Shown: positions 49,219 to 53,233 of the stretch, piece by piece
Position numbering within the stretch: the first letter of the stretch is position 1
How the letters are laid out: each line of letters opens with the position of its first letter
Origin: an uncultured Bacillota bacterium
Lineage (GTDB): Bacteria > Bacillota > Clostridia > Christensenellales > UBA1242
DNA: 64,000 nt
Assembly (NCBI GenBank): GCA_949292985.1
Contig: CASFBF010000010.1
Span: 77,485-141,484 of the forward strand
Reading direction: 5' to 3'
Position numbers and translations under genes: made by a program
The notes under the pieces: model-generated
The model's database searches: none
Seen by the model: the letters and a program-made list of their open reading frames with translations, nothing else
Told to the model about the DNA's origin: nothing

Positions 49219-50175
49219 TTATCTTTGGTCACTAATATTTGCATTGCTGTTGTTTTGTTGCAATTGCGTAACATTGTCATATGGAACACCCGAAGTTGTT
49301 CCCGAAAGCAAAGCAATATCTACGGCATTTGCAGGGCTTCCCCACGAGTTGCCACTAAATTGCATCAACGCTTGGTCTACAACCCAACCCCGTGTATTAA
49401 ATACAACATTGTGTGTTACAAATCCGCTTGAATTTGGATTAAAATATCCCGCTTGGCGTAAAGAATACAGAATGTTTCCATCAATCCAGTTATTAGTTGT
49501 TGATGTTTGAGTAACTATTCCTCTATTTACTATCCAAGTATCTGAACCACCTGATTGCGTAGGTCCAAATATGATGTTGTTTCTGACTATATTGTCGTTA
49601 CTGCCCAACTGTATAAATTCCACTGGGTAAGGATTATCACTTGTAAAAGTAAGCCCTTCAATAGTATTGCCAACTCCTGTGACTAAAAAAGGCACAACAT
49701 CGGCAGTAAGATAAATTACCGCACCAGGTCTTCCAATAATACTTATATAATTTTTGTTTATATTCATTGTTTCAGAATATGGATAGAAACCTGCATCAAC
49801 ATATATATACCCACCAGTTTTTACAACAGCCAAAGCGTCTTCTATGCTAGGTAAAGGATTATCTTGCGTGCCTATGCCACCAATAGTTCCACTTTTAACA
49901 TAAAGCATAGAATTGTTAACCCCCAAAACACCAGTTGCACCAGTTGCTCCCGTTGCACCAGTCGCTCCCGTAGGTCCCGTTGCGCCTGTCGGACCAGTTG
50001 GCCCCGTCGCACCTGTTGGACCTGTTATGCTTAAACCAGTTGCACCTGTTGCCCCCGTCGCTCCTGTCGCTCCCGTTGCACCGGTTGGACCTGTCGGTCC
50101 TAAAACAAACTTTACAGGTACAGCGCACCTATTGCATCTGCAATTATTTTTTAAATTACAAAATATATTGTACAT
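49219..50175 (-). CDS. BclA-like collagen-repeat protein with C-terminal beta-helix
   Basis: A 318-aa protein. A Cys-rich N-terminus ([12 protein letters not shown], no signal peptide) precedes about 25 Gly-X-Y triplets of the GPTGATG/GATGPTG type (residues about 26-86). A roughly 230-residue domain follows whose motifs ([48 protein letters not shown]) are those of a right-handed parallel beta-helix of the pectate-lyase type. This N-terminal plus collagen layout is that of exosporium BclA/BclB proteins, except that the tip is not TNF-like. Likely a spore-surface filament. The start at 50175 uses AGGAGA; 50199 is an alternative. Confidence 0.8.
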
Positions 50176-50185
50176 AATATAAAAG

Positions 50186-50214
50186 TCTCCTAAATTCATG
50201 TTATGAAATTTAGG
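50186..50214 (-). promoter_or_regulatory. Hairpin overlapping the ribosome binding site of the collagen-like gene
   Basis: In the transcript CCUAAAUUUCAU and AUGAAUUUAGG form an 11-12 bp stem with a 3-nt loop. The AGG of the AGGAGA ribosome binding site lies in its 3' arm. It could control translation or be a DNA operator. Confidence 0.45.
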
Positions 50215-50251: not shown

Positions 50252-50279
50252 AAAAAACCAAGACTTCATGCCTTGGCTT
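50252..50279 (-). terminator. Probable terminator of the gtrA-ASCH gene
   Basis: On the minus strand CCAAG, a 9-nt loop and CTTGG are followed by six T; the stem overlaps the 3' end of the coding region. Confidence 0.6.
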
Positions 50280-51084
50280 TGTTTTTATTAAATTTTACTT
50301 CAATTGCAAGCACACCATCTTTCATGTCTTCTTGTGAATAATATTGGCGCATATCTTCTGGTGAAGCCTGCTGATTGCTTTCGTAACCTAAATCTTTTTT
50401 ATCATAATGATTGTATAACTCTTCAAAACTATCAAATTTGGTTATATCAACAATTGTTGCTTTAAAAAATTTGCTTTCATCATCTCGATTTTTAAAAATA
50501 ATATGGTCGCCTTTCAAAAGAGTTTTGCGTTTTTCATCATTAACTCTCATTTCAATTTTTTTGTCGCCATTTACAAAACTGTTAAACGCACTGGTGCTAA
50601 GTTTCATCTCAACAGTTTTAGGCAATGGTTTTGTGTTAATGCTTTTTCTAAACACAAAATATCTTTGCCATAAAAATTCAGTAACGAAATTTATAACCAT
50701 CATAATAAAAGTTACAAGCGTTCCATTCCAACCTATATCTTCCAACGCCCTACCACCAAAAACCGAGATTGGAATAAATGCAGCATAATACAGCAAGGTC
50801 CAAGCCATTGCTATTGGCACATTATTTGCAGATTTAAATGTGAATTTTCTGTTAAAAGTGAAATTCCAAATAACCGACAAAACAATTGATATTAAATAAC
50901 TTGGCCACCAAAACCAGCCAATTGCATCATACAAAATTTCAAACGAAACAATTTGAATTACGCCTGCTGAAATTGAAAAACCAAGAAATTTAAGCGCTCT
51001 AAAAATTTCATCTTTATTTAACTTTTTTGCTTTTACATTGGTTTTTTCTGTGCTAACTTCGCTTTGTGAAACTGTCTTCTTCAT
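50266..51084 (-). CDS. GtrA-like membrane protein fused to an ASCH domain
   Basis: A 272-aa protein. Residues about 28-145 are a GtrA-family domain with four membrane helices (FLGFSISAGVIQIVSFEIL, WNFTFNRKFTFKS, and the WQRYFVFRK end). Residues about 155-270 are a cytosolic ASCH-type domain: EMKLSTSAFNSFVNGDKKIEMRVND, KGDHIIFKNRDD, and then VDITKFDSFEELYN. GtrA proteins move polyprenyl-phosphate-linked sugars; ASCH domains bind RNA or nucleotides. I know of no common protein with this pairing. It starts at a leaderless-type promoter. Confidence 0.78.
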   Translation of the reverse strand: MKKTVSQSEVSTEKTNVKAKKLNKDEIFRALKFLGFSISAGVIQIVSFEILYDAIGWFWWPSYLISIVLSVIWNFTFNRKFTFKSANNVPIAMAWTLLYYAAFIPISVFGGRALEDIGWNGTLVTFIMMVINFVTEFLWQRYFVFRKSINTKPLPKTVEMKLSTSAFNSFVNGDKKIEMRVNDEKRKTLLKGDHIIFKNRDDESKFFKATIVDITKFDSFEELYNHYDKKDLGYESNQQASPEDMRQYYSQEDMKDGVLAIEVKFNKNKAKA

Positions 51085-51208: not shown

Positions 51209-51703
51209 TTATTCATTTGGTCCCAAAAATTTTGTGCCATCTGCAATTTTAATTTTATAAATTTGAGCCTGTGCTTCCTGGGTCCATGTAACTTTAACTT
51301 CAAACTCTCTGTTAGTTTCACTTACCAAAGGCGTCAAAACAAAGTAATTCATTACTTGACCGTATACAGTTTGCATAAATGCCCCGCCTGTTATTTCTTC
51401 ACCTTGAAAATTAAGTTTTGCTTTGCTGTAATCGGTCACATCGCAAGGCGCATAAATTTTAAAACCAATTCTATTCCCTGCTATTTTTCCCAGACTTTCA
51501 TCAGCCTCATAATATAAAACCGCCTCACCTAAGCCTCCAAATGTTGCGGTATGTGTAACCTCATCATACACGAAAGAAAGATTCCCGCCAGTCAACGAAT
51601 TATCTCTTTCGACCTTGCCATATGTATATTCTCGCCCACAACCCGTCAAAATCAACGGTATAAGCATCACCAGCGAGAAAATAACGATTAAACTTTTTTT
51701 CAT
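51209..51703 (-). CDS. Uncharacterised lipoprotein
   Basis: A 164-aa exported protein with a typical lipobox (LILTGC) at residues 18-23. The mature part is a single beta-rich domain containing FVYDEVTHTATFGGLGEAV and a C-terminal VTWTQEAQAQIYKIKI. No family recognised; the pattern resembles small Ig-like substrate-binding or envelope proteins. The ATG is preceded by GGAGAAC. It is followed on the same strand by the gtrA-ASCH gene, which has its own promoter. Confidence 0.75.
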   Translation of the reverse strand: MKKSLIVIFSLVMLIPLILTGCGREYTYGKVERDNSLTGGNLSFVYDEVTHTATFGGLGEAVLYYEADESLGKIAGNRIGFKIYAPCDVTDYSKAKLNFQGEEITGGAFMQTVYGQVMNYFVLTPLVSETNREFEVKVTWTQEAQAQIYKIKIADGTKFLGPNE

Positions 51704-51769: not shown

Positions 51770-53233
51770 TCATTTAGAAGCATCTAAATCGTGATTTTTT
51801 TGATCATTTACAAAATTTTTGCCTTCTGCAATTTTCATCTGCGCTTTTAAAACATCCGCCCTTTTGATTTTATACCTTGAAAAAATCAAAATCGCACAAG
51901 CAAGCGCTATCGAACAGCCACAAAAAACTATTGTGCCAAGACCTGTTTGAACACTTAACGCCTGAATAGGCTGAGAAGAATCAAACTTTATCGCATCTAA
52001 TAGTATTCCTATTATCAAAAGCGAAATCGAGTTTGAAAGGTTATATGTGAATGAATAATATCCTAAATAAGAACCTGCTTTGTTTTCACCAATTTTGTAT
52101 TGTTCAAGTGTAACAACATCGGCATACATTGATATTGGCAATGATTGCATTGCTCCAATTCCAAATCCACAAATAAAAATGCAAACAATGACAAAATAAT
52201 AAATAAAGTTTGATGGCACATATTGCCTAAACACAAATGAAATAAGCGTCAACCCAATACCCAGTAAAATTAAAGACAGCGCAGAAATCAATGCTCCCTT
52301 TTTATCTATACGTTTTGAAAGCGCAACCCAAAATGGTTGCGATATGATTGCACCCGCAAACAGCAAGATGAGTAACAAAGATATTTGAGCAGTGCTAAAA
52401 TGATAACAGTATGTGAATAAATGCATACCAACCGAAGTTAAAAAAGAGGTGGCTATTTGTGCTATAGAATATCCTGCGATAACACATGCAAAGCCTGAGT
52501 TTTTAAAAACTTCAAAATATCCCAGCATCAATTTTTTGAAATTATGTTGTTCAGTTTTAACCTGCGAATATTTAACATGGGTTTGCACTCTTTTTAAACT
52601 ACCAAAAATGGTTATCAGCCCAAAAAATATAACCAAAAGTGAATTTACAAGCGCTATTGTAATAAACCCTGATTGATTAGCCTCAGTAGAATTTGCGCCC
52701 AACGATAATGATGGCATGATAAAAAACATTAAAATACTTGGCAAAATCATGCCAACAATATTAAATGCGGTTTTATAAGATTGAATTTTTGATTGCTCGT
52801 TATAATCTGGTGCCATATCAAGTGCCAGTGCAGAATAAGGCGTTGACCAAAATGTGTTTGCTGTTTCAAGCAACAATAAAAAGAATAAAAGCCAGCAAAA
52901 CATAAAACCTTGCGAACCTTTTGGCATACTCCATAACAACACATTGCAAATCCCTATCAAAAATATAGCCACAACCATGAATTTCAACCGTTTGCCAAAA
53001 CGGCCATTTTTTGCTCTGTCTGAAATGTTGCCTACAAGCGGGTCGCTTATCCCGTCCCAAAGTGACGCAATACCAATCGCAATTCCAACCAAAGTTCCCG
53101 ACAACCCCATTATTGAAGTGCAAAAAAACATTAAAAAAGAACCTATGGTTTGTCCGAGACTGTTATATCCTAACCCACCTATTCCATAGCAAACTTTATT
53201 TTTGAAAGGCAAAGCATTTGAGTTTTTTTTCAC
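51770..53233 (-). CDS. GPH-family (MelB-like) sugar:cation symporter
   Basis: A 487-aa major-facilitator transporter with 12 predicted helices. The diagnostic GPH motif is the loop 2-3 sequence DGISDPLVGNISDRAKNGRFG, followed by WSTPYSALALDMAPDYNEQS. These symporters import glycosides with sodium or protons; no substrate can be read and no glycosidase gene is nearby. The start appears to be a GTG at 53233 with no clear ribosome binding site; a weak TAAGAT box lies six bases upstream, in keeping with the leaderless pattern. Confidence 0.88.
   Translation of the reverse strand: MKKNSNALPFKNKVCYGIGGLGYNSLGQTIGSFLMFFCTSIMGLSGTLVGIAIGIASLWDGISDPLVGNISDRAKNGRFGKRLKFMVVAIFLIGICNVLLWSMPKGSQGFMFCWLLFFLLLLETANTFWSTPYSALALDMAPDYNEQSKIQSYKTAFNIVGMILPSILMFFIMPSLSLGANSTEANQSGFITIALVNSLLVIFFGLITIFGSLKRVQTHVKYSQVKTEQHNFKKLMLGYFEVFKNSGFACVIAGYSIAQIATSFLTSVGMHLFTYCYHFSTAQISLLLILLFAGAIISQPFWVALSKRIDKKGALISALSLILLGIGLTLISFVFRQYVPSNFIYYFVIVCIFICGFGIGAMQSLPISMYADVVTLEQYKIGENKAGSYLGYYSFTYNLSNSISLLIIGILLDAIKFDSSQPIQALSVQTGLGTIVFCGCSIALACAILIFSRYKIKRADVLKAQMKIAEGKNFVNDQKNHDLDASK

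Follow-up and report, generated by a model that had tools for sequence, protein, structure and literature searches.

Introduction

The closest described relatives of the protein analyzed here fall into two groups. Proteins of the GtrA/GtcA family (PF04138) are known from CsbB-GtcA-YfhO and GtrA-GtrB-type glycosylation. ASCH domains are widespread, and a function has been assigned to few of them (PMC6972931). ASCH and PUA domains have been described as binding nucleic acids and as being associated with translation (PMC7641849), and GxKxxxxR has been named as the ASCH motif (PMC5615036). ZmASCH cleaves single-stranded RNA, and the residues given for it are Tyr47, Lys53 and Ser128 (PMC5615036). 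Escherichia coli YqfB, an N4-acetylcytidine amidohydrolase with the ASCH fold, requires Lys21, Thr24 and Arg26, and strongly Glu74 (PMC6972931), and YqfB-type enzymes showed no binding to nucleic acid (PMC9599836).

Other described ASCH proteins with solved structures (PH0355, PF0455 and PF0469), whose entries assign them no function, are free-standing chains of 109-113 residues, whereas the ASCH domain described below forms the tail of a membrane protein. PH0355 is the nearest of these to our domain by sequence and by structure, and PH0355 and PF0455 have a KKIExRxxDEKR...GD core in common with it. The EVE domain, which is PUA-like, is likewise found at the C-terminus of other proteins, including acetyltransferases. 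It represents another domain within the superfamily, and the source text covered here names no GtrA, Tmk or SDR partner for it.

A GtrA-ASCH fusion protein

The window, which is the whole 64,000-nucleotide stretch of DNA that we analyzed, contains a gene in which these two families are joined. The features of the gene and of two conserved neighbors are as follows.

50266..51084, minus strand: GtrA-ASCH fusion gene, 272 aa, ATG start
50650..50991, minus strand: GtrA_DPMS_TM domain, residues 32-145 (Pfam), with four predicted membrane helices
50293..50598, minus strand: ASCH domain, residues 163-264 (Pfam, PH0355 match, PHROG 19935)
50545..50568, minus strand: ASCH signature GxKxxExR (G173, K175, E178, R180), from the sequence and the clade alignment
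50611..50649, minus strand: junction RKSINTKPLPKTV, residues 146-158, from the GtrA tail into the first ASCH strand (alignment, unfused GtrA tails)
50254..50280, minus strand: hairpin overlapping the stop codon, with a T run after it (RNA fold)
51209..51703, minus strand: lipoprotein-like gene upstream, no Pfam family; conserved neighbor, identity read from the sequence
51770..53233, minus strand: MFS_2 sugar-transporter-type gene (Pfam); conserved neighbor by synteny

An initial annotation had read the 272-aa chain as a GtrA domain joined to an ASCH domain, and both Pfam cut-offs were passed. GtrA_DPMS_TM (PF04138) matched with E = 4.9e-9 and 36.8 bits (cut-off 26.1). ASCH (PF04266) matched with E = 3.6e-6 and 28.1 bits (cut-off 21.2), confirming the ASCH assignment by profile search. 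The best solved relative by sequence was the ASCH protein PH0355 (2z0t; E = 2.3e-5), and PHROG 19935, a viral family annotated 'RNA-binding protein', matched the ASCH half by profile (E = 7.6e-21). The fusion protein had no match in a search of NCBIfam.

We used AlphaFold2 with six sequences to obtain a model of modest quality (pLDDT 69.5, pTM 0.45). It has four long helices (residues 24-55, 59-82, 86-116 and 121-149) followed by strands, and hydropathy agrees in placing four membrane helices in the GtrA half. In Foldseek searches with this model, the C-terminal half matched PH0355 (2z0t, E = 2.9e-5), indicating an ASCH/PUA-like fold, and weakly matched YqfB (9kyf, E = 1.4e-2) and its complex with ac4C (9kyh, E = 3.6e-2). 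The N-terminal half had a weak match to dolichyl-phosphate-mannose synthase (9ep0, E = 1.3e-2, prob 1.00). Two chains of PH0355 were the only matches to reach E = 1e-3.

Distribution of the fusion

Matches to the fusion protein were present in 97 of 112 genomes of the genus and extended across both domains in 11. A twelfth genome (G033) has the fusion in a gene interrupted by the end of a contig. In the alignment of the 11 fusions, identity to the window protein ranged from 79 to 49 percent. Because the fusion is in frame in 11 separate genomes, an assembly artefact, one of the hazards named beforehand, was ruled out. GtrA-ASCH is a real and conserved domain pairing, and both of its component families were already known.

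There was no full-length match outside the genus among the matches listed, best first, for 297 genomes of the family (42 genera), nor among 391 genomes of the class in a search limited to E = 1e-28; these searches would miss fusions with a very different ASCH or a canonical GtrA. The carriers are one genus of small-genome Clostridia, and we rejected the idea that GtrA-ASCH is a general clostridial architecture, since it was seen only in that genus in the family and class searches. A scan of viral contigs with the fusion profile detected one relative, which was GtrA-only. In the literature searched, which did not include the ASCH superfamily survey of Iyer et al., 'ASCH domain' and 'GtrA' occurred together in no paper, and among the titles and abstract openings listed, neither a GtrA-ASCH nor a Tmk-ASCH fusion was named.

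Junction, topology and neighborhood

The boundary between the two halves is as clean as the initial annotation had claimed. In some unfused GtrAs the chain closes with a tail like FRKSINTNSLAK or FRKSIDTNNLAK, and the fusions read FRKSINTKPLPK directly into TVEMKL, the first ASCH strand. At the position of TVEMKL, GNAT-ASCH relatives have KKYVMKL. Lysines and arginines number nine in the N-terminus, three in the second loop and five in the tail, compared to zero and one in the other loops. By this positive-inside pattern, the N-terminus, the second loop and the C-terminal tail would be cytosolic.

We compared 12 fusion loci, including the window and the interrupted gene of G033, with nine unfused loci. 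An MFS_2 transporter gene lies no more than two genes from the fusion in all 12 fusion loci, 11 of these loci also have a small lipoprotein-like gene, and in nine the three genes are contiguous and co-directional. In all nine unfused loci, gtrA adjoins a gene that reads as gyrB from its sequence; the fused form therefore occupies a different place in the genome. A YfhO gene is directly downstream of the fusion in two genomes, G045 and G047 (Pfam E = 8.7e-84 and 1.5e-81).

A neighboring ASCH gene as the source of the fusion was not seen. None of 35 unfused gtrA loci (L013-L030 and L128-L144, whose flanks extend for roughly 1.5 kb at most) has a separate ASCH gene beside gtrA, and no gtrA was seen beside an ASCH gene in the stand-alone ASCH loci.

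The GtrA half belongs to a non-canonical subfamily

The window GtrA resembles the described family in its profile match, its four predicted helices and two phenylalanines. We compared five positions of Listeria GtcA that have a published phenotype (R95, K121, N132, F74 and F91), with the numbering transferred by motif spacing and not via the GtcA sequence. F74 and F91 are kept as F83 and F103, whereas R95, K121 and N132 are replaced by S107, T125 and E136. The statement that both parts of the chain retain their motifs thus stood for the ASCH half, which has G173, K175 and R180, and failed for the GtrA half at three of these five positions.

Six window-type GtrAs have S or Q, T or L, and E in the columns of R95, K121 and N132, and keep both phenylalanines. 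In contrast, among 19 canonical clostridial GtrAs (those of 30 fetched loci that remained after filters removed 11), K is present in 17 at K121 and N in 16 at N132; R is present in only six at R95. From these residues, we place the window GtrA in a subfamily apart from canonical GtrA/GtcA.

The usual partner enzymes were also sought, with PF00535 and PF09586 as the profiles. In the window genome, we found neither a GtrB-like GT2 nor a YfhO (PF09586). Its single PF00535 match lies in a 368-aa ORF that reads as a GT2 with repeats rather than as GtrB, and it spans positions 1-118 of the 168-position profile. Some PF00535 match was present in 17 of 21 genomes scanned. Frames of GtrB-like length (309-321 aa), as judged by length and span alone, were present in three of the 21 (G030, G028 and G045), and YfhO exceeded the cut-off in two, with weak matches below it in three more. 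The fusion also exposes a GtrA subfamily, common in the genus, in which key residues differ and for which the usual partner enzymes are mostly missing from the genomes scanned.

The ASCH half and its possible chemistry

The signature residues are retained in 10 of the 11 fusions. In an alignment of 11 rows from the ASCH clade, the pocket signature is the best-conserved part: a Glu is invariant at E178, and conservation also extends to a YY pair and, within the DEKR stretch, to its D, K and R. Basic residues are not in excess in the ASCH half (21 K+R and 22 D+E). ZmASCH cuts RNA, YqfB-type enzymes bound none, and the charge of the window domain is balanced; binding of a nucleoside or RNA by this domain is therefore a reasoned guess. 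A role in binding some ligand is possible for the ASCH half itself.

By motif spacing, K175 and R180 fall at the positions of K21 and R26 of YqfB, and E178 falls at that of Thr24. The window domain has the ASCH fold and the signature K and R in common with YqfB, but it has Glu in place of the nucleophile. The published Lys21-Thr24-Glu74 triad is therefore absent, YqfB-type amidohydrolase chemistry is not expected, and we do not count the domain as a member of that group.

Related ASCH domains have unrelated partners

ASCH is present in 70 of the 112 genomes of the genus. Related ASCHs are the C-terminal tails of GNAT acetyltransferases, of thymidylate kinase (two genomes) and of a short-chain dehydrogenase (one genome). 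A separate ASCH type follows VOC/glyoxalase domains, and there is one ASCH-ASCH tandem. These identities were assigned by Pfam on representatives. GtrA-ASCH and GNAT-ASCH occur together in one genome (G046). The kinase fusions are in G044 and G048 (L048, 773-1735, plus strand; L050, 1314-2252, minus strand), and that of L048 scored above the NCBIfam cut-off for dTMP kinase.

Three of 72,556 plasmid records matched, and two of them were inspected. One, a plasmid of Mycoplasmopsis gallopavonis (NZ_LR215033.1; L239, 2459-3634, plus strand), encodes an ASCH at the N-terminus of a Cof-type HAD hydrolase, and a gene annotated dcm adjoins it. None of 50,697 phage records matched at E = 1e-3, and on this basis we rejected a phage origin of the domain, though the viral family PHROG 19935 matches by profile. 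A role in anti-phage defense was likewise rejected, as PADLOC gave no match for four proteins.

Our profile found 73 ASCHs, and we built a tree of 71, excluding two (L112 and L119) with fewer than 80 matched residues. In the set of 73, identical proteins were merged and L081-L084 were omitted; the VOC-fused type was missed by the profile and is absent from the trees. Two labels need qualification: 'GNATb' (L045-like rows) rests on likeness to L090, Pfam detecting no GNAT in L045, and 'alone' is unsure for L103 because its contig begins inside it. The 11 GtrA-fused ASCHs form one side of a branch with support 90/89 (not starred). They fall within a starred clade of 33 rows that also contains 15 GNAT-fused and seven stand-alone ASCHs, and the kinase-fused and dehydrogenase-fused ASCHs fall outside it. 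The partner labels require 11 changes on the tree, where shuffled labels average 34.

A single clade of fused GtrA halves is rejected when it has to contain G091 (p-AU 0.00018), since the GtrA of this genome is of the insert-bearing type. Its ASCH groups with the other fused ASCHs (support 91/91, not starred, with L010 omitted), and its linker and neighbors match those at the other fusion loci. This is most simply explained by a single fusion and a later replacement of the GtrA half in G091; two fusions of closely related ASCHs would also fit.

Both halves appear to be constrained, with one exception. Comparing the window with L002, dN/dS was 0.071 for GtrA and 0.064 for ASCH at a dS of 2.3, which is near saturation; comparing L005 with L007, it was 0.028 and 0.154. 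Many synonymous distances in these pairs were saturated. In every pair without G058 that yielded a value, dN/dS of the ASCH half was no higher than 0.44, and in most pairs this half changed faster than the GtrA half at the amino-acid level. The codon changes are consistent with purifying selection on both halves. In G058, the ASCH motif and Pfam match are lost, the branch is 3.24 changes per column long, and the GtrA half is conserved; our own profile still detects the domain (E = 9.7e-16). The motif loss implies that the module is dispensable in this genome. A type IV secretion coupling-protein (TraG-like) gene (L156, 4993-6981, plus strand) lies directly downstream of the decayed fusion, and a mobile element may therefore have landed there.

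Stand-alone ASCHs often adjoin translation genes

We identified the neighbors of all 11 stand-alone ASCHs from other genera of the family (three genera) among the matches listed. Eight have an RNA or translation gene next door, and tsaD is one gene away in two more; these are raw counts, and the loci are not independent events. The adjoining genes in the eight are mnmE and mnmG, tsaD, yhbY or obg with pheS, and jag. The ASCH of L223 (4507-4848) lies between mnmG and mnmE. In L226, L228 and L232, it lies between obg/yhbY and pheS, and in L227 (5373-5711) between yidC and jag, as in L230, where the upstream gene is cut. tsaD adjoins ASCH in L224 and L225 and is one gene off in L229 and L231. In L233, ASCH (740-1072) is beside parA. 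For each of MnmE, MnmG, TsaD, YhbY, Obg, PheS, YidC, Jag and the ParA-type ATPase, Pfam confirmed one or more representatives, and the remaining genes were named by likeness.

In the genus of the window, four of seven stand-alone loci of the ASCH clade have such neighbors and three do not. ASCH is between mnmE and mnmG in L035 (1272-1655) and beside mnmG in L100, and in L080 and L092 it faces, in convergent orientation, an apparent trpS gene. The stand-alone ASCHs of L223, L035, L227 and L233 occupy different slots of one apparent gene cluster, which we take to be of the yidC-jag-mnmE-mnmG-rsmG-parA-parB type. An ASCH group that is attached to unrelated proteins and whose free members often lie beside mnmE/mnmG, tsaD, obg-yhbY-pheS and yidC-jag offers concrete leads on the ASCH ligand.

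Interpretation

Our preferred reading, to which we give a probability of roughly 0.4, is that the ASCH half is a putative nucleoside- or RNA-binding module, mobile and linked to translation, that was added to the predicted cytosolic tail of a membrane protein and works there largely on its own. The recipient would be a member of the non-canonical GtrA subfamily, extended by the module where its C-terminal tail ends. The module would bind a nucleoside, a nucleotide or RNA and have its own translation- or tRNA-linked job, and the four-helix GtrA half would tether it to the cytosolic side of the membrane. The halves would be largely independent, with regulation of either by the other secondary.

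We favor this reading because the GtrA-fused ASCHs share a starred clade with GNAT-fused and stand-alone ones; because the partners of related ASCHs are unrelated, and include a HAD hydrolase in M. gallopavonis; and because eight of the 11 listed stand-alone relatives, as a raw count, adjoin RNA or translation genes. The apparent constraint on the ASCH half, the grouping of the G091 ASCH with fused ASCHs while its GtrA half differs, the annotation of PHROG 19935 as RNA-binding and the published description of ASCH/PUA domains as nucleic-acid binders (PMC7641849) point the same way. Several results weigh against it. The ASCH half is not basic, and its motif is lost in G058. The stand-alone loci are non-independent, and of the four of seven in the window genus that count, two do so through convergent trpS only. 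The conserved envelope-type neighborhood (MFS_2 and lipoprotein-like genes) would fit a role tied to GtrA. A bolder form seems unlikely to us: a membrane-anchored reader of RNA or tRNA nucleosides, in which GtrA is no longer a flippase, would link RNA or nucleoside state to the envelope, with ASCH as a mobile module that would be attached to GtrA, GNAT, Tmk, SDR and HAD proteins in small-genome bacteria.

The initial annotation had proposed a flippase that senses a cytosolic ligand. A flippase for lipid-linked sugars, gated by an ASCH domain that binds a ligand such as a nucleotide or nucleotide-sugar, would be compatible with the predicted cytosolic position of ASCH, the conserved MFS_2 sugar-transporter neighbor, retention of the signature in 10 of 11 fusions, and the YfhO gene downstream in G045 and G047, as in CsbB-GtcA-YfhO (PMC7389260). 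We consider it weakly supported and doubtful. The GtcA residues R95, K121 and N132 are replaced, the window genome had no GtrB-like GT2 or YfhO in our searches, and a GT2 of GtrB-like length is present in three of 21 genomes. Moreover, relatives of the domain are found on acetyltransferases, more distant ones on a kinase and a dehydrogenase, and others alone by translation genes, and it is therefore not a GtrA-specific sensor. The same clade supplies the GNAT-fused and stand-alone forms, and in G058 the ASCH decayed and the GtrA was maintained.

That decay, the confinement of the fusion to one genus in the genomes searched, the faster amino-acid change of the ASCH half in most pairs and the several unrelated partners of related ASCHs would also be expected if the domain had been added nearly neutrally. 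A lost stop codon or recombination would then have left an ASCH that folds, is weakly needed and has no special role at the membrane. This seems rather unlikely, given that the signature is kept in 10 of 11 fusions, that dN/dS of the ASCH half is at most 0.44 in all valued pairs without G058, and that ASCH is maintained in G091 while the GtrA half differs.

Still less probable is that the ASCH half is a docking or stabilizing tail, for binding a partner protein or for forming dimers, and one among several tails carried by GtrA. Several unfused window-type GtrAs do have long, charged, predicted cytosolic tails, three of them with the motif LG[QK]INYD, but the pocket signature is the part best kept in the clade alignment. 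Finally, a membrane-tethered enzyme, either a YqfB-like amidohydrolase acting on a modified nucleoside or a ZmASCH-like ribonuclease, is very improbable: it accords with the weak Foldseek matches to YqfB and its ac4C complex 9kyh (E = 3.6e-2), and with the motif spacing, which aligns K175 and R180 with K21 and R26, but the Thr24 nucleophile is an invariant Glu (E178) in the 11 clade rows.

Additional features of the loci

The unfused GtrAs with the LG[QK]INYD motif in their C-terminal tails are L028, L132 and L133 (genomes G098, G072 and G102), with two copies in L133. Pfam assigned no family to the tails of L132 and L133. In the window, the fusion is followed closely downstream by a collagen-like gene with GPTGATG repeats (49219-50199, minus strand; Pfam Collagen, E = 3.9e-7), which has no clustered relative in the other compared loci. 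An operon with this gene is unlikely, given the terminator-like hairpin at the stop codon of the fusion and the lack of a relative elsewhere. This hairpin, which is absent from the list produced by a terminator consensus scan, has a folding energy of -13.2 kcal/mol (z = -3.3, equalled by one of 200 shuffles), and together with the T run it is likely to be the intrinsic terminator of the fusion gene.
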